A stretch of DNA of 61,289 nt from Bdellovibrionales bacterium. GTDB taxonomy: Bacteria; Bdellovibrionota; Bdellovibrionia; Bdellovibrionales; UBA1609. The stretch is taken from assembly GCA_007121385.1 (NCBI GenBank), contig SKLV01000004.1, forward strand, positions 1 to 61,289, given 5' to 3'. The position numbers were made by a program, and so were the translations under genes. Under the pieces are notes generated by a model that was not told the DNA's origin, searched no databases, and worked only from the letters and a program-made list of their open reading frames with translations. Below are positions 29,030 to 37,172 of the stretch, piece by piece (the first letter of the stretch is position 1; each line of letters opens with the position of its first letter).

Positions 29030-29194
29030 ATGATCAAAGCCAATTTAATGAAAAAACAGAGCCAAATTGCAGTGGATTTGACCCAAGAGAGCCAAAATTC
29101 GGCTCTGGAAGTGTCCAAAATTGAGCTGCCTCTCACAGCCGCCCTGACATTTATCTTCCTATTGATAGTTTCCCAGCCCTTTTTCTCGGCTTAA
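29030..29194 (+). CDS. Possible small tail-anchored protein, 54 aa
   Basis: This ORF is too short for the track. It starts at ATG with AAGGTGG six bases upstream. The soluble part is polar (MIKANLMKKQSQIAVDLTQE) and the C-terminus is one strong hydrophobic segment (LPLTAALTFIFLLIVSQPFF), as in a tail-anchored membrane protein. It reads toward dnaE2 and overlaps that gene's 3' end by 36 bases, so part of its sequence is constrained by DnaE2. It could be a chance ORF; conservation in relatives would decide. Confidence 0.4.
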   Translation: MIKANLMKKQSQIAVDLTQESQNSALEVSKIELPLTAALTFIFLLIVSQPFFSA

Positions 29195-32100
29195 AAGAGA
29201 AAGAGCCTCCGGGTCTTTTGAGCTGAATCCCCTAGGGGCTCTTAGGGGCCTTAGAGCTTCAGCCCGGATTTGAGCCCGGCCCAGGTGGTTTTCCACTCGG
29301 CCAGTGATCTCCAAGAGGGGTTGCTGTTGCAGGACCTGCCGCTGGGCCAGGTAGATTTGCGGACTCAAAATCACATTAAAAAGTCCCCACTCATCCTCAA
29401 GAGTTAAGAAAGCAAACCCCTTAGCCGTTGGGGGTTTTTGAAAAGTGCTCAGAAGCCCCACCAGAGTGACCCTTTGACCGGAACGCAGTTTTTTCAAGGA
29501 GGCACTGGTCCAGGGACTGATTTTCTCTTCCCGAATAAAACTGCGCAAAACTCTTAGAGGGTGGAGAGTAAGACTGTATCCTTGATGACTATACTCCCTT
29601 TGCATCTGTTGCCAGGGCGCTTCTGGCGGCAGTGGCGGGCGATCTACATCTTTTAGGGGAGCTTGGCTAAAGAAAAAGCTTTTGCGGTCGAGATTGAGAG
29701 ATTGAATTTTCCAAATGGCCCTGCGAGGGCTTTTTTCAAAGCTGGACAGGGCTCCGGCTGCAGCCAGGAGTATGAGTGCAGATCGAGGCAGCTCGGTGCG
29801 ACGGACAAAGTCTTCTAGGCTGCTAAAGCCCCCCCTTTCTCTTCTTTCCAAAAGAAGTTGATCCGTCCATTTGCGATGGAGGCCAAAAAGGGCGCGAAAG
29901 CCGACACGGACAGAGAGAAGGGGCCCCTTTGAGGGCTCTAAAGCGTAGTCATAATCAGAGTGTTGGACATCTAAAGGCAAAAAGGGCACTTGCTGCCTTT
30001 GCGCCTCTGCAATCAAAGTTCGAGGGGCATAAAACCCCATGGGTTGACTGTTGAGGAGAGAGCAAACAAAAACATCGGGATGATGAGCCTTTAAATAAGA
30101 ACTGGCATAGGTGATGAGAGCAAAGCTGGCGGCATGGCTCTCTGGGAAGCCATAGGAGGAAAAGCCCACAATCATCTGATAAATTTGTTCGGCAAAGCGG
30201 GGTTCAATATCATGGTTGAGCATGCCGTTGATCAGTCGCTGACGAAGCCCTTGCATGACTTGTGGTTTTTTCCAGGAAGAGGACATAAGTCGGCGCAGCT
30301 CATCAGCCTCTCCCGGTGTGAAACCACAGACGGCGGAAGCCATCTGCATGATCTGTTCTTGGAAGATAGGAACACCATAAGTTTTAGACAAAATGGGGAT
30401 CAGAGCCGGATGGGGATAGTGTTCTCTCTCCAGTCCATGGCGCCGTTTTAAGTAGGGGTGAACCATCCCCCCTTGAATGGGGCCAGGGCGCACAATGGCC
30501 ACCTGAACCACGAGGTCGTAAAAGCATTTGGGCCTGAGTCGAGGTAAAAGGGACATCTGGGCTCGAGACTCGATTTGAAAGACCCCGATAGTTTCGGCCC
30601 TTTGAATCATTTGATAGGTCTTAGGGTCTCCAGAGGGAATTTTTGCCAGACTGAGATCAAGACCTTTTTTGCTTTTGAGCAGAGCGAAGCTGTGTTTGAG
30701 CGCCGTCAGCATTCCCAATCCCAATAGGTCAATCTTCATCATTTTCAAGGCTTCCAAGTCGTCCTTATTCCATTGCACCACAAAGCGGTCAGCCATAGTG
30801 GACTGTTCCACGGGAACACATTCGGTGATGGGTCTTTGGGTGATAACAAAGCCCCCAGTGTGAATCCCAATATGTCGTGGAAAACCATAGAGTTGAGAGG
30901 TGAGCTCGATCAAAAGGCGAAATCGGCTCTCACTGAGTCCCCAGAGTCTCTGGGGCAGAGAGGGCTCCTGCTGAAAGCTTTGCCACAGTCCTTTAAGGCC
31001 CTCCTTGCCCATGCTTCGTACAATGGAGCTGAGAGTCTCTGAAGGCACCTCTAAAGCCTTGGCCACTTCTCGTAAAGCCATTTTGGATCGATAGCAGATG
31101 ACGGTACAGACCATGGCGGCGTGTTGGACTCCATAGCGCCGATAGACATACTGGAGGACCTCCTCCCGGCGGTCACTCTCAAAGTCCACATCAATATCGG
31201 GAGGCTCTCCTCGCTCTTTGGAAATAAACCTCTCAAAGAGAAGGTCTATTTTTTCCGGGTCCACAGAGGTCAGACCCAAAAGATAGCAGACGACGGAGTT
31301 GGCTGCAGAACCTCGGCCCTGGTAGAGAATATTGTTCTTCCTTGCAAATTCACAGATGTCCCACAAAGTAAGAAAGTAGTCCTGGTACTGAAGTTCCTCA
31401 ATCAGAGCCAACTCCTTTCTTAATAGGCTCAGCACTTTATCAGAAGGACCTTGGGGAAACCTCCATTTTAAGCCCTCCTCAGCCAAGTGCTGGAGATAGG
31501 TCTGTGAAGTGTGGCTCTTTGGCACAGCGGCCTTTGGGTACTGGTATTTGAGTTCATCGAAAGAAAATGAAATACGCTGAGCAATTTTCACACTTTGCTT
31601 CAGAAGGTCTGGTCGATCTCGCCAAATCTGGGCGAGATCCAAAGGGCTTTTGAGGTATCGCTCCTGGTTACTCAGCAGTCGAGTTTTGGCCTGGGAGAGA
31701 GAAACTCCGTGGAGAGAGCAGGTCAACACATCAAAGAGGGCCTTGCGCTCAGGCAGGTGCATGACCGGCCGTTGGGTGGCCACCAGCTGGAGGCCCCATT
31801 GGGTCTCCAATTGAAAGGCCTGTCTTTCAAGAAGGTGGCTTTCCCAAGTCATGTCTCGCCAAATGGGGAGATACATTCGATCGCCAAGAAGCTCATGCAA
31901 AAACTGGAGATCTTCAAGAGACCATGGGGGCAGAGCAAGCACAATCAGATCGTCAGAGTGGTCTTTGAGTATTTTCAGGTCAAATTGACTGAAGGTCTTT
32001 GGGGCCGGACGCTTGGCTGTGGTGATTAACCTACAGAGCTGAGTGTAGCCCTCTTTATTCATAGGCAGAAGAGCCAGAGAGCTTTTATTTTTTAACCGAA

Positions 32101-32377
32101 GTTCAGCTCCACAGATGAATTGAAAAGACTCTCCAAGAGGGTTTCCTGTTGCGGAGAAGAGGGGGTCAAAAGAGGAAACCTGGTAGGCCTGACGATGAGC
32201 TCGAACCACTCCATAAAGTCCATCCAAATCACAGAGGGCCAAACCCTGGTAACCCAGCTCCTGAGCCCGGCTCACCATCTCTTCGGGGGAAGAGGCTCCC
32301 TGTAGGAAGGAGAAGTAACTCCTTCCTAAAAGTTCAACATAGGGTGGAGGGCAGAGGCTGACTTCAGTAGTAACCAT
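29159..32377 (-). CDS. dnaE2: Error-prone DNA polymerase III alpha subunit, DnaE2/ImuC
   Basis: This is the catalytic polymerase of the ImuA-ImuB-DnaE2 mutasome, which copies across DNA damage. The N-terminal PHP-like domain begins YVELLGRSYFSFLQGASSPE. The polymerase active site is GEPPDIDVDFESDRREEV with DLLGLGMLTAL further on. The end carries an OB-fold nucleic-acid domain (GQRVTLVGLLSTFQ, FAFLTLEDEWGLFNVIL). Its 1072 residues are normal for DnaE2. It overlaps imuB by 14 bases and is the last gene of the lexA operon. Confidence 0.93.
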   Translation of the reverse strand: MVTTEVSLCPPPYVELLGRSYFSFLQGASSPEEMVSRAQELGYQGLALCDLDGLYGVVRAHRQAYQVSSFDPLFSATGNPLGESFQFICGAELRLKNKSSLALLPMNKEGYTQLCRLITTAKRPAPKTFSQFDLKILKDHSDDLIVLALPPWSLEDLQFLHELLGDRMYLPIWRDMTWESHLLERQAFQLETQWGLQLVATQRPVMHLPERKALFDVLTCSLHGVSLSQAKTRLLSNQERYLKSPLDLAQIWRDRPDLLKQSVKIAQRISFSFDELKYQYPKAAVPKSHTSQTYLQHLAEEGLKWRFPQGPSDKVLSLLRKELALIEELQYQDYFLTLWDICEFARKNNILYQGRGSAANSVVCYLLGLTSVDPEKIDLLFERFISKERGEPPDIDVDFESDRREEVLQYVYRRYGVQHAAMVCTVICYRSKMALREVAKALEVPSETLSSIVRSMGKEGLKGLWQSFQQEPSLPQRLWGLSESRFRLLIELTSQLYGFPRHIGIHTGGFVITQRPITECVPVEQSTMADRFVVQWNKDDLEALKMMKIDLLGLGMLTALKHSFALLKSKKGLDLSLAKIPSGDPKTYQMIQRAETIGVFQIESRAQMSLLPRLRPKCFYDLVVQVAIVRPGPIQGGMVHPYLKRRHGLEREHYPHPALIPILSKTYGVPIFQEQIMQMASAVCGFTPGEADELRRLMSSSWKKPQVMQGLRQRLINGMLNHDIEPRFAEQIYQMIVGFSSYGFPESHAASFALITYASSYLKAHHPDVFVCSLLNSQPMGFYAPRTLIAEAQRQQVPFLPLDVQHSDYDYALEPSKGPLLSVRVGFRALFGLHRKWTDQLLLERRERGGFSSLEDFVRRTELPRSALILLAAAGALSSFEKSPRRAIWKIQSLNLDRKSFFFSQAPLKDVDRPPLPPEAPWQQMQREYSHQGYSLTLHPLRVLRSFIREEKISPWTSASLKKLRSGQRVTLVGLLSTFQKPPTAKGFAFLTLEDEWGLFNVILSPQIYLAQRQVLQQQPLLEITGRVENHLGRAQIRAEALRPLRAPRGFSSKDPEALSLLSREKGLGNYQ

Positions 32378-33671
32378 GGAGGTAGTATTGGTCTTCGACT
32401 CGATCGTGATAAACCCAAAGACACTCCCCCTTAGGGCTTAAGGCCACATAGTAGTCACGGCCCCTTGTGCTCTCCCACCAACTTTCTTCCAGTCTTTCCA
32501 CAGGGTAAGAGCTCAGAAACTCCAGCTTTCGGAGCTCTTTTCCTGAAATTCTTTGAGGGCTTGAGAAGAGAAGGGAAGGGCGAGGAGCGGAGCGCAAACT
32601 GGAGCTGTGAGCTGGTTTAATTTGAAAGCTTTTGCCGTCCACGTGAACTTGGTCCTCTATAGGTTCATAGTCCATAAACTCAAAGTTCAATTGCCAACTC
32701 TTTTCCGGTAAAATTTCGTCTTTGAGTTGAAAAAAACCTGAGTGGACTTCGGCTTGTCTGAGAAGTCCTGATAGGGCATGAACTTTATCTTGGTCTTTTA
32801 CTCGGGGCTGCCAAAAATCCAATTGCTCAATCCTTTCGGGAACAGGAAGAGCTTCGATCTCAATATGCTGAATGGGATTGTCGAGTTCAATAGACTCCAG
32901 TTTGTGTTCGATCAGCTTCATTAAAATATCTAAGTCTCGACAGGCTTGGAGCGGCTGAATTTCAAGGAGATGTATTTGTCCTGAAAATTCACAGTGCAAA
33001 TGGAGGCGAATTCGCTGGGCAAACTCTCCTCGCCCCTGAAGTCGGGCTAAAAGCCTCTGCAGCTGCTTCTCAATACAGTGAAGCAAAAAAGACATCAGGG
33101 AGACGGAAAAATCCAAGTGAATAAATTCAATAAGAGCTTCTTTTGGAATATAAGGAGATAAGGCCTGTTGCTCGCGCCCATGAATCTTTTGCCACAGGCG
33201 CTCTCCAGTTTTGCCCCACTGTTGTCTTAAAGAGTCTCTTGAAATCTGCTGAATATCAGAAATTTGATTTAAACCGACAAGTTTGAAAAAGCTAATAATT
33301 TGTTCAATTTGATCTTCAGGCTGCCAACAGATAAGGCCTTCTAGATGATTGAGGGCAGCCAGAGGGAGGGGGCCTAAGGCCGATGAGTCTTCATTGGGGC
33401 GACTCATGGATGAGGGCTGATACAGACTGAGACCTTGGGCTGTGCTGGGCTGATCCGCAATGGCTGCTGAGAGAGGTAAATGAAGAGATTGGCTCAGTTG
33501 GAGGACTTCACGCAGCAGTTGGGATTCTCCACCAAACAAATGAGCTGTTGAGGAGATATCCAGAAATAGAAGTCCTGGTTTGCGGTACTGAAGCTGGGGA
33601 GAAAATTGCAAAAAAACTTCAGCTAGCGATGGCTTTTCGTTTTTTTGAAAGTTGAGGCATAAGGTCCGCAT
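32364..33671 (-). CDS. imuB: Y-family polymerase-like mutasome protein ImuB
   Basis: ImuB resembles Y-family polymerases but serves mainly as the hub that links DnaE2 to the sliding clamp. The start MRTLCLNFQKNEKPSL has GGAG eight bases upstream; the longer ORF in the track lies inside imuA. LLFLDISSTAHLFGGESQLL corresponds to the palm region, with conserved LFLDI and LFGG. The C-terminal half is the little-finger-like and ImuB-specific part (LPEKSWQLNFEFMDYE). It overlaps imuA by 53 bases and dnaE2 by 14. Confidence 0.88.
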   Translation of the reverse strand: MRTLCLNFQKNEKPSLAEVFLQFSPQLQYRKPGLLFLDISSTAHLFGGESQLLREVLQLSQSLHLPLSAAIADQPSTAQGLSLYQPSSMSRPNEDSSALGPLPLAALNHLEGLICWQPEDQIEQIISFFKLVGLNQISDIQQISRDSLRQQWGKTGERLWQKIHGREQQALSPYIPKEALIEFIHLDFSVSLMSFLLHCIEKQLQRLLARLQGRGEFAQRIRLHLHCEFSGQIHLLEIQPLQACRDLDILMKLIEHKLESIELDNPIQHIEIEALPVPERIEQLDFWQPRVKDQDKVHALSGLLRQAEVHSGFFQLKDEILPEKSWQLNFEFMDYEPIEDQVHVDGKSFQIKPAHSSSLRSAPRPSLLFSSPQRISGKELRKLEFLSSYPVERLEESWWESTRGRDYYVALSPKGECLWVYHDRVEDQYYLHGYY

Positions 33672-34293
33672 AGAGAACTCTCCTTTGAAAAGACTTGGGG
33701 GTCGGACGATGTAAGGCGCGCTCAATTTCCACAAGCGGTCCCTGAGTCCGAAGGATAGTGGCATAAAAGGGAGACTTGAGGGGTTGTTGTTGCTGACTTA
33801 AAATCACAATGGAACACTGATAGCGTTGAGCTAATTTTCTGAGTTTTTGAATCTGTGAATGCGGAGGGCTGAGGTGATCCCAATGACAGCCAATGATTTC
33901 AAAAAGAGATGTTGATAGGAGTTCTCCCATAATCCACAGCCACTGCTTAGGATTATGTCTATGGCCTTCGACAACAAAAATTTTGGAAAGGTCACAATCC
34001 TTTTGAAAAAGTCCCCAAGGGCAAAGTTTTAAATGTTGAGGACTGACCCAGGCCGCCCACAGCTGCCTTTGGGTGAGAGGTGGGAGAGCCTTGAGCCAAA
34101 GAGCAGTAGGTCCTAAGCCTTCAGATCCGTAAATCAGGCTCACTTCACCCTTAGGCCAGCCAGACCATAAAAAAAATTGATCTAAAGGAGGGCAGCCCGT
34201 AGGCACTGCGGAGGCTGTGCGAATTTGGTCACAGCTCACAAGATGTCTGGCCAACTGACAGCGCAATTGGGAAAGGTGTTTTGTCTTAGACAT
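33619..34293 (-). CDS. imuA: RecA-like mutasome protein ImuA
   Basis: ImuA is a short RecA/SulA-like partner needed for ImuB-DnaE2 mutagenesis. The opening PTGCPPLDQFFLWSGWPKGEV matches the family start (G-x-x-LD-x-x-L-x-x-GW-P-G). The Walker A position reads LIYGSEGLGPTALWL, in which the usual lysine is missing, so ATP binding may be weak. A Walker B-like strand follows (LFEIIGCHWDHL). It lies 11 bases after lexA and overlaps imuB. The identification rests largely on operon position plus the N-terminal motif. Confidence 0.8.
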   Translation of the reverse strand: MSKTKHLSQLRCQLARHLVSCDQIRTASAVPTGCPPLDQFFLWSGWPKGEVSLIYGSEGLGPTALWLKALPPLTQRQLWAAWVSPQHLKLCPWGLFQKDCDLSKIFVVEGHRHNPKQWLWIMGELLSTSLFEIIGCHWDHLSPPHSQIQKLRKLAQRYQCSIVILSQQQQPLKSPFYATILRTQGPLVEIERALHRPTPKSFQRRVLYADLMPQLSKKRKAIAS

Positions 34294-35056: not shown

Positions 35057-35085
35057 AAAATAAGTGTAAATAAAGTGTAAGTCAA
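35057..35085 (-). promoter_or_regulatory. Candidate promoter of lexA-imuA-imuB-dnaE2
   Basis: On the minus strand TTGACT (35085-35080) is followed after exactly 17 bases by TATTTT (35062-35057), which fits a sigma-70-type promoter with a weak -10. The -35 box and spacer are made of the direct repeats, so a protein bound there would block RNA polymerase. Confidence 0.5.
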
Positions 35086-35105
35086 GTGTAAGTAAAGTGG
35101 AAGTA
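35062..35105 (-). repeat. Four 11-bp direct repeats, candidate LexA operator
   Basis: Plus-strand units are AAGTGTAAATA, AAGTGTAAGTC, AAGTGTAAGTA and AAGTGGAAGTA, exactly abutting. Read toward lexA they give TTCC-N7-TTAC-N7-TTAC-N7-TTAC, one half-site per helical turn. The array lies 38 bases upstream of the lexA start codon. Confidence 0.75.
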
Positions 35106-35288: not shown

Positions 35289-37172
35289 ATGAAGCTTTTA
35301 AGGGGGGCTTTATTGGGTCTGATCATCATGGGGGGGCCATGGGTTGCTCAGGCGCAAATCGATTTTGGGGAAGAGTTCTTTCAGGAGAATTTTGGGGCTA
35401 ATCTGGTTCAACCACAAATTATTGGTGGCGATCCTATTCCAGCCAATCGCTACCTGGCCACCTTAGTGACAGCAGAAGGAGATCCTTTTTGCGGAGGCAC
35501 TTTTATTGCCGAGCGAGTGATCCTCACGGCAGCTCATTGCGTAAATGGGCGATCCCAGAGGCCTGACTTTGCCGTGGTGGTGGGAGCGCAAAGCCTGTCT
35601 GAACTCTATGGCGCAAGGCGGCTGGCTGTCAGGGCTATTCGAGTTCACTCCGGGGTGGCTTCTCCCAGCTATAATCAAGCTCATCAGGATGATATTGCCC
35701 TGCTTTTTTTAGCTGATTATTCGGCTCGGCCTCTGGCTGAGCCGGTGCAACCCCTCTCTCTTTACAGAGGGACCTATGGGAACTTGGAGAGAGAAAAAGT
35801 CAGGGCTATGGGCTGGGGCAATATGTCTAATTTAGGAAGAGTTCTTGCCCGCAATCTCATGGCCGTAGAGATTGAGGTGGTCAGTCCTGAGGAGTGCCGT
35901 CAACTCAATGTGCCTCTGCAGTCGGCCTCAGAGCGCAGTATTGCAGAAAAATACGCTCATATCTCCAGTGTTCATCAGCTCTGTGCTGCCCATCCGCAGG
36001 GCGGTCGGGACACCTGCCAAGGGGACTCAGGAGGGCCCTTGATCTGGACATCTCCCTCTGGAGAGCAGTTCTTAGTAGGGGTCACTAGCTGGGGATTCAG
36101 CTGCGGACAGAGAGGTTTCCCAGGAGTCTATGCTCGGGTGGCCAGCTATGGGGACTGGATTGATGAAGAGATAGAGGCCTACTGGCGGTTTGAAGAGGAG
36201 GGTGGTATCGAGAACCCCACTCGGCTTGCTGAAACTTTTGTGGGACCAGATCTGTCGATTGTCACCGAGGATCGAGACCCCTCGGGAGCCCGAAGGGTCA
36301 ATATGAAACGCTTTACTCAGCCTTCTCTTGAAGATTGGGCTAGAAGTTACTCTCCCTTGGCCTCAGGGACTCAATCCCTGTTCTCTCACCAGTGGAAGGA
36401 TATTAGAGGAAGAAATTTTGACTATCGCATTTATCCCTCAACCTCCTCTCCTCATGAGTTTACGGCCCATCTGACCACTCCCATTGGCCGTTTTCAGGCT
36501 CCTTCACCTTGGCAGAGTTCAGCTCTCGTGGTGTCTTGTCCTTTGCCTAAAGATTTTGAACTCGGATCAAGAGTGGCTCTGCTTCAGGATTTTGATCGTG
36601 GCACAGCCCAGATCACTTTAAATGGAAAATTCTGGCGGGCTCAAGAGCGCTCAGACTTCTCCCAACTCGTCCAGGAGAAAAGCGAAGTGATTTTTTGCGA
36701 GGTGGGAGACTCAAGGCTGAGTCTGGGGCTATGGCAAGATCTCTCCGGGCAAAGAGATCTCTTTGTCCAATTGCAGGACCCACTTTTTGGTTCACAAATT
36801 TTTACCATTGAGACGGCCGTTGAGGAAACCAACCCTGGAGCCGCGTTGAGGTTTGAATTGCGTTTGAGGGGTCAGGAGGTGGCTCTCTTTAACCCTCATG
36901 ATGTGGACCTTTACTATTGGGAGCTGGATTGCAATGAGGCCATGTCCATTCAAGTGGCTCACGCAGGCTTTTCCTCGGGACAAAAATTGGCGAGAGAAGA
37001 GGGAGTTACAGAGAGCCTGGGATATCGCTGGACTGTGGATCATCGGGTCGGAGATTTTTGGAAGATCCCGGCAGGCACAGAGGTGTCCTTCCAGTTGGAA
37101 AGTCCCGTCAGTGTCTCTGGCCTTAAATGCACTTTAAATGGCCAAAGCATCAATGTGACCGAAGTTCTGTAG
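35289..37172 (+). CDS. Secreted trypsin-like serine protease (S1) with ~310-aa C-terminal extension
   Basis: A signal peptide (MKLLRGALLGLIIMGGPWVAQAQ) and short pro-region precede the mature start IIGGDPIP (residue 44). The catalytic triad is H83 (LTAAHC), D135 (DDIALLF) and S247 (CQGDSGGPL). Asp241, six residues before the serine, predicts cleavage after Arg or Lys. The S1 domain ends near residue 297. The remaining ~310 residues are beta-rich without a motif I know (RFQAPSPWQSSALVVSCPLP, NPHDVDLYYWELDCNEAMS) and may bind substrate or the surface. Exported trypsins of this kind are numerous in predatory Bdellovibrio. Confidence 0.9.
   Translation: MKLLRGALLGLIIMGGPWVAQAQIDFGEEFFQENFGANLVQPQIIGGDPIPANRYLATLVTAEGDPFCGGTFIAERVILTAAHCVNGRSQRPDFAVVVGAQSLSELYGARRLAVRAIRVHSGVASPSYNQAHQDDIALLFLADYSARPLAEPVQPLSLYRGTYGNLEREKVRAMGWGNMSNLGRVLARNLMAVEIEVVSPEECRQLNVPLQSASERSIAEKYAHISSVHQLCAAHPQGGRDTCQGDSGGPLIWTSPSGEQFLVGVTSWGFSCGQRGFPGVYARVASYGDWIDEEIEAYWRFEEEGGIENPTRLAETFVGPDLSIVTEDRDPSGARRVNMKRFTQPSLEDWARSYSPLASGTQSLFSHQWKDIRGRNFDYRIYPSTSSPHEFTAHLTTPIGRFQAPSPWQSSALVVSCPLPKDFELGSRVALLQDFDRGTAQITLNGKFWRAQERSDFSQLVQEKSEVIFCEVGDSRLSLGLWQDLSGQRDLFVQLQDPLFGSQIFTIETAVEETNPGAALRFELRLRGQEVALFNPHDVDLYYWELDCNEAMSIQVAHAGFSSGQKLAREEGVTESLGYRWTVDHRVGDFWKIPAGTEVSFQLESPVSVSGLKCTLNGQSINVTEVL

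Follow-up and report, generated by a model that had tools for sequence, protein, structure and literature searches.

The LexA-SOS box of Escherichia coli is the palindromic operator CTGT-N8-ACAG, and the box TTAC-N3-GTAA of Bdellovibrio bacteriovorus is said to go back to the work of Campoy et al. in 2005. The latter box, in which TTAC is inverted across a 3 bp spacer, and the direct repeat GTTC-N7-GTTC of the Alphaproteobacteria are both documented (PMC8565304, PMC3323433), in agreement with what a preliminary description of the locus considered here had stated. A direct repeat of the TTACAC type, TTACACATATTTTWTACATA, has been described with gel-shift support for the Balneolaeota, and a repeated origin of direct-repeat LexA operators has been argued (PMC7739468). 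In the present work, we have analyzed an array of four 11 bp direct repeats located upstream of lexA in a 61,289 nucleotide stretch of DNA from a Bdellovibrionales bacterium (contig SKLV01000004.1 of assembly GCA_007121385.1; hereafter the window), where lexA is followed by the other genes of a co-directional lexA-imuA-imuB-dnaE2 cassette, imuA and imuB being assigned by weak matches and position. Judging from sequence comparisons, this array is with high probability the operator through which LexA represses the cassette, and it consists of head-to-tail TTACAC half-sites at 11 bp spacing.

The array resembles each of these operators in part. It shares direct repetition and the 11 bp phase with the alphaproteobacterial box, which is also that of Acidobacterium capsulatum, but its half-site is TTACAC and not GTTC; comparable multi-copy arrays are not known to us from the Alphaproteobacteria. 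With the B. bacteriovorus box it has in common the TTAC half-site and the targets, viz. lexA and the imuA-imuB-dnaE2 cassette, whereas its half-sites are direct and phased at 11 bp and those of the published Bdellovibrio site are inverted. The Balneolaeota box, which belongs to a different phylum, has a near-identical half-site (TTACAY) in direct repetition and comparable targets, viz. recA, polymerases IV and V, and a radical SAM protein, but its printed consensus spaces the half-sites by 13 bp instead of 11 (PMC7739468).

The array at the lexA promoter and its conservation

On the + strand the array is made up of the units AAGTGTAAATA (35062), AAGTGTAAGTC (35073), AAGTGTAAGTA (35084), and AAGTGGAAGTA (35095), which keep an exact 11 bp phase over 35062–35105, and on the lexA strand it reads TTCC-N7-TTAC-N7-TTAC-N7-TTAC. 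Tandem Repeats Finder (period 11, 4.0 copies) gives it a score of 67, the highest of the 27 arrays in the window (runner-up 51). The window contains a single exact triple TTAC-N7-TTAC-N7-TTAC, and no second copy with up to one mismatch was found elsewhere in the 2.4-Mb genome. A promoter-like TTGACT-17-TATTTT lies inside the array on the - strand (35085–35057) with half-sites 3 and 4 in its spacer, and no TTAC-N3-GTAA palindrome was found upstream of the window lexA. Both the four abutting repeats and the promoter within them had been pointed out in the preliminary description, which placed the start at 35057 because it included the -10 hexamer.

The LexA protein encoded by the window is the only copy in its genome. 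It exceeds the cut-offs of PF01726 and PF00717 (the winged helix-turn-helix DNA-binding and S24 peptidase domains) and of TIGR00498 (169 bits, cut-off 111), and its self-cleavage residues A104 and G105 and catalytic residues S139 and K176 are invariant across 18 aligned LexA proteins. Residues 45, 48, and 49 align with N41, E44, and E45 of E. coli LexA, a member of the same protein family; these E. coli residues we take to be base-contacting in the solved LexA-DNA complex. The E. coli protein differs in its palindromic operator and in its shorter inter-domain linker. Within the order the linker, measured by us from the helix to the cleavage site, spans 54–124 residues with one exception of 42. 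The idea that a long linker enables LexA to read direct repeats was nevertheless rejected, because many direct-repeat LexA proteins outside the order have short linkers (~40).

LexA is present in 46 of 59 related genomes. The 13 genomes without a LexA match (viz. G002, G003, G010, G014, G015, G018, G022, and others) are mostly small (1.2–2.1 Mb). The preliminary description had named the absence of the repeats from the lexA promoters of close relatives as one of the observations that would refute it; TTAC-N7-TTAC is present in 27 of 30 lexA upstream regions read within the order. In these 30 promoters TTAC pairs with a period of 11 were observed 38 times, compared with 0.45 in dinucleotide shuffles, with further peaks at 22 and 33, and the number of consecutive half-sites per promoter ranges from 2 to 6. 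In a relative from the same genus all four units remain in phase, although two are degenerate, and named metagenome-assembled genomes (MAGs) of the Bdellovibrionales and Pseudobdellovibrionaceae likewise carry TTAC direct repeats at lexA.

Inverted and direct arrangements of the TTAC half-site

As the palindrome is the published site of B. bacteriovorus (PMC8565304), the LexA of this order could be supposed to recognize TTAC-N3-GTAA, the direct repeats being incidental or duplicated half-palindromes. The genus Bdellovibrio lends this some support, for its lexA and imuA are preceded by a composite of four half-sites, two forward and two reverse, whose center (TTACACTGTAA or TTACATAGTAA) is TTAC-N3-GTAA; at these genes of the Bdellovibrionaceae, the palindrome is flanked on either side by a direct-repeat pair, the two pairs facing in opposite directions. 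However, besides its absence from the window lexA, the palindrome occurs in only 3 of the 30 lexA promoters, all from one family. The dinB gene in 10 of the 10 Bdellovibrio genomes examined (HD100 and Tiberius included) has a direct repeat only, which abuts the start codon, and the right arm of the palindrome reads GTAG at lexA in L318 and at imuA in L322, both of which retain an intact direct repeat. A palindrome-reading LexA is hence improbable for this lineage. Because dinB has the direct repeat only and the right arm is lost in L318 and L322, it seems that TTAC-N3-GTAA forms the middle of a larger, composite site upstream of lexA and imuA; the LexA of the Bdellovibrio family may have both arrangements in use.

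Further candidate targets and covariation with the recognition helix

Outside of lexA promoters, a search of the relatives for exact TTACAY-N5-TTACAY, in which genes were identified by profile or RecA match, found two same-orientation half-sites at the 11 bp period upstream of other SOS genes, viz. dinB (5), a umuC-like gene, umuD (3), imuA (3), recA (2), and ruvC. Among these, dinB in L064 and L072 was identified only by the match of their N-termini to the profile-confirmed L067, and imuA by a match of one member to the ImuA model, below its cut-off. The repeat is also found at pgpA (3), ~1 kb upstream of recA, and at radical SAM genes, as well as at four genes that look ImuA-like but were confirmed by no model. 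The 46 genomes with lexA contain 103 sites compared with 50 for a reversed-pattern control (p 1e-5), and 13 further genomes of the genus Bdellovibrio contain 63 compared with 8, whereas the 13 genomes without lexA show no enrichment (8 sites, 6 for the control).

The bases of the half-site vary together with the residues of the LexA recognition helix. A first set comprised 59 LexA genes having in their own promoter an 11 bp direct repeat of the half-site xT[A/T]C[A/G][C/G]. In this set base 3 is A with Q48 (33/33), base 5 is A with N45 (27/27) but G with G/A45 (32/32), and base 6 is C with R/N/K49 (39/39) but G with D/E/Q/G49 (20/20), so that the pairings of base 3 with residue 48, base 5 with residue 45, and base 6 with residue 49 are without exception. 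The rules were then frozen and applied to 52 fresh LexA proteins less than 90% identical to the first set, where 120 of 129 bases were predicted correctly (5000 shuffles: mean 94.5, maximum 107), viz. 42/44 at base 5, 35/35 at base 6, and 43/50 at base 3. The fresh set also contains a new pairing, in which residue 49 is His and base 6 is A (GTACGA, GTTCGA), and two His49 helices that go with GTACGG. In one genome (G145) with three LexA genes (L261–L263), the repeats TTACAC, TACGG (a weaker array), and GTTCGG each fit the helix of their own gene, and two other genomes with two LexA paralogs each (G188, L256 and L257; G027, L027 and L264) have differing half-sites at the two promoters. As the half-site bases covary with residues 45, 48, and 49, LexA itself very probably reads the direct repeats.

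Several observations weigh against this interpretation or limit its reach. The half-site was defined as T[A/T]C[A/G][C/G] after inspection of the data, and the loci other than lexA were chosen by eye from the pattern list. On the LexA tree there are 4–6 base changes per position, 1–2 of them on supported branches, and the covariation is therefore far from 100 independent events; in a tree-based sign test, which is underpowered, no position passes alone. The frozen rule for base 3 missed 7 of the 50 fresh cases, and since 6 of the 7 belong to one helix type, ATxQxH with His at residue 50, this part of the code is incomplete; viewed post hoc, Q48 and Tyr/Phe50 seem to be jointly required for A at base 3. 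Lastly, allowing one mismatch, the genome of the window has 11 sites, array included, compared with 19 for the control, and nothing stands out beyond the lexA operon. Its recA was considered as a second target and rejected, as no half-site lies upstream and the gene is preceded by an apparent cinA. A regulon limited in this manner fits the 2005 B. bacteriovorus study, which by its title reportedly places canonical SOS genes outside LexA control, and the two regulons are alike in that these genes lie mostly outside them.

A different regulator that binds 11 bp direct repeats, e.g., a response regulator of the OmpR/PhoB type, might instead read the array, since PhoB/PhoP boxes are direct repeats at ~11 bp spacing. 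This we consider very improbable: the targets in relatives are SOS genes, enrichment of the motif is confined to the genomes with lexA, and the half-site bases track the adjacent LexA helix even among paralogs of one genome, the helix-matching repeats of the three G145 genes in particular disfavoring a shared third regulator. Replication slippage does generate short tandem repeats, but a chance or slippage-made array of no regulatory role has a negligible probability here, as the array keeps its phase and place across the order while the flanks diverge and the TTAC repeat unit recurs at unlinked SOS genes.

The reading proposed in the preliminary description, according to which this LexA has retained TTAC as its half-site and recognizes it as a direct repeat, thus finds support in the conservation of the repeats throughout the order, their placement at other SOS genes, their dependence on the presence of lexA, and their covariation with the helix. 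From the repeats, their conservation, their placement, and their agreement with residues 45, 48, and 49 we infer that LexA binds the array and represses the operon, how many dimers take part, and that damage induces expression. Each TTACAC half-site would accommodate a single winged-helix domain, and adjacent half-sites of the same orientation, being 11 bp or about one helical turn apart, would be jointly occupied on one face of the DNA. Because the spacer between TTGACT and TATTTT is taken up by half-sites 3 and 4, LexA bound there should block RNA polymerase, and half-sites 1 and 2 could hold a second dimer. Upon DNA damage, RecA-assisted self-cleavage at A104-G105 would release the operon.

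Coordinates of the operator region and operon in the window. On the lexA strand, half-sites 1 to 4 start at 35102, 35091, 35080, and 35069, respectively.
Feature	Position	Strand	Basis or remarks
Array, four 11 bp direct repeats, predicted LexA operator	35062..35105	-	Repeat search; conservation in 27/30 lexA promoters of the order
Half-site 1, TTCCAC	35097..35102	-	Pattern match; one mismatch to TTACAC
Half-site 2, TTACAC	35086..35091	-	Pattern match
Half-site 3, TTACAC	35075..35080	-	Overlaps end of -35 hexamer, within promoter spacer
Half-site 4, TTACAC	35064..35069	-	In promoter spacer, adjoins -10 hexamer
Predicted -35 hexamer, TTGACT	35080..35085	-	TTGACT likewise placed relative to the half-site pair in many relatives
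Predicted -10 hexamer, TATTTT	35057..35062	-	
lexA, 239 aa	34305..35024	-	Winged helix-turn-helix; recognition helix N45, Q48, R49; cleavage site A104-G105; S139/K176
ImuA-like gene, second in operon	33619..34293	-	NF033429, E=1e-13, below its cut-off
ImuB-like gene, degenerate Y-family polymerase	32364..33764	-	Weak polymerase IV matches, E ~5e-4; position between imuA and dnaE2
dnaE2, error-prone DNA polymerase	29159..32377	-	NF004225, 1170 bits, over cut-off

A gene for a trypsin-like serine protease (35289–37172, + strand) is divergent from lexA and shares its intergenic region without having an array of its own. Two further groups of direct repeats were seen in relatives. In four Bdellovibrio loci (L066, L069, L323, and L330) a TTTACATATAATTTACATAT-type repeat followed by TTGAC lies ~200 nt upstream of a conserved helix-turn-helix gene that by eye resembles mobile mystery protein A, and this repeat is either a LexA target or the operator of the helix-turn-helix protein itself. 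In L071 and L086, which represent two families, a common unannotated protein of ~200 aa is encoded behind a direct repeat, in L086 within a TTGACTTACACATAACTTACACAT promoter; this protein is a candidate for an uncharacterized SOS gene.

Direct repeats upstream of lexA in other lineages and their significance

A set of 62 LexA upstream regions (Acidobacteria, Gemmatimonadetes, Bacteriovoracaceae, Patescibacteria, and other MAGs) shows an excess of exact 7-mer direct repeats at a lag of 11 only (20 compared with 0.4) and no excess of inverted repeats. The half-sites drift across these regions (TTACGC, TACGG, TTTCAC, TTTCGC, TTCGG, and GTTCGG) while the phase remains constant, and they often lie in the -35/-10 spacer. 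Other Bdellovibrionota LexA genes (the L266–L286 group, e.g., L273, L280, L283, and L286; also L287 and L293), whose helix is AVGTVQDHV or similar, have the palindrome TACCATAC-N4-GTATGGTA upstream and no direct repeats. Desulfobacterota-like LexA genes (L139, L143, L157, and L161; helix NTVTTY/NTVVTY) have a 12 bp direct repeat, CAGTA-N7-CAGTA, in the -35/-10 spacer.

The suggestion in the preliminary description of a new operator architecture was somewhat too strong in view of the direct repeats of the Alphaproteobacteria and the TTACAC-type repeats of the Balneolaeota (PMC7739468), although its direct-repeat reading is supported. What is new is the revised Bdellovibrio box, the predicted dinB site of HD100, and the code relating residues to bases. 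A broader possibility, for which we would put the chances at slightly below even, is that the 11 bp direct-repeat LexA operator is widespread and old (Bdellovibrionota, Acidobacteriota, Gemmatimonadota, Patescibacteria, and other MAGs) and follows a modular code in which residue 45 sets base 5, residues 48 and 50 set base 3, and residue 49 sets base 6, with the alphaproteobacterial GTTC repeat and the Bdellovibrio palindrome as special cases. If this is true, a LexA operator would be predictable from the protein alone.

For the Bdellovibrio group, these results revise the accepted LexA box and predict regulon members that a palindrome search misses, e.g., dinB in B. bacteriovorus HD100. For the LexA family, they offer a simple and testable code between three protein residues and operator bases, which would help to explain both the frequent evolutionary change of the LexA target sequence and the coexistence of several LexA copies in one genome without cross-talk.
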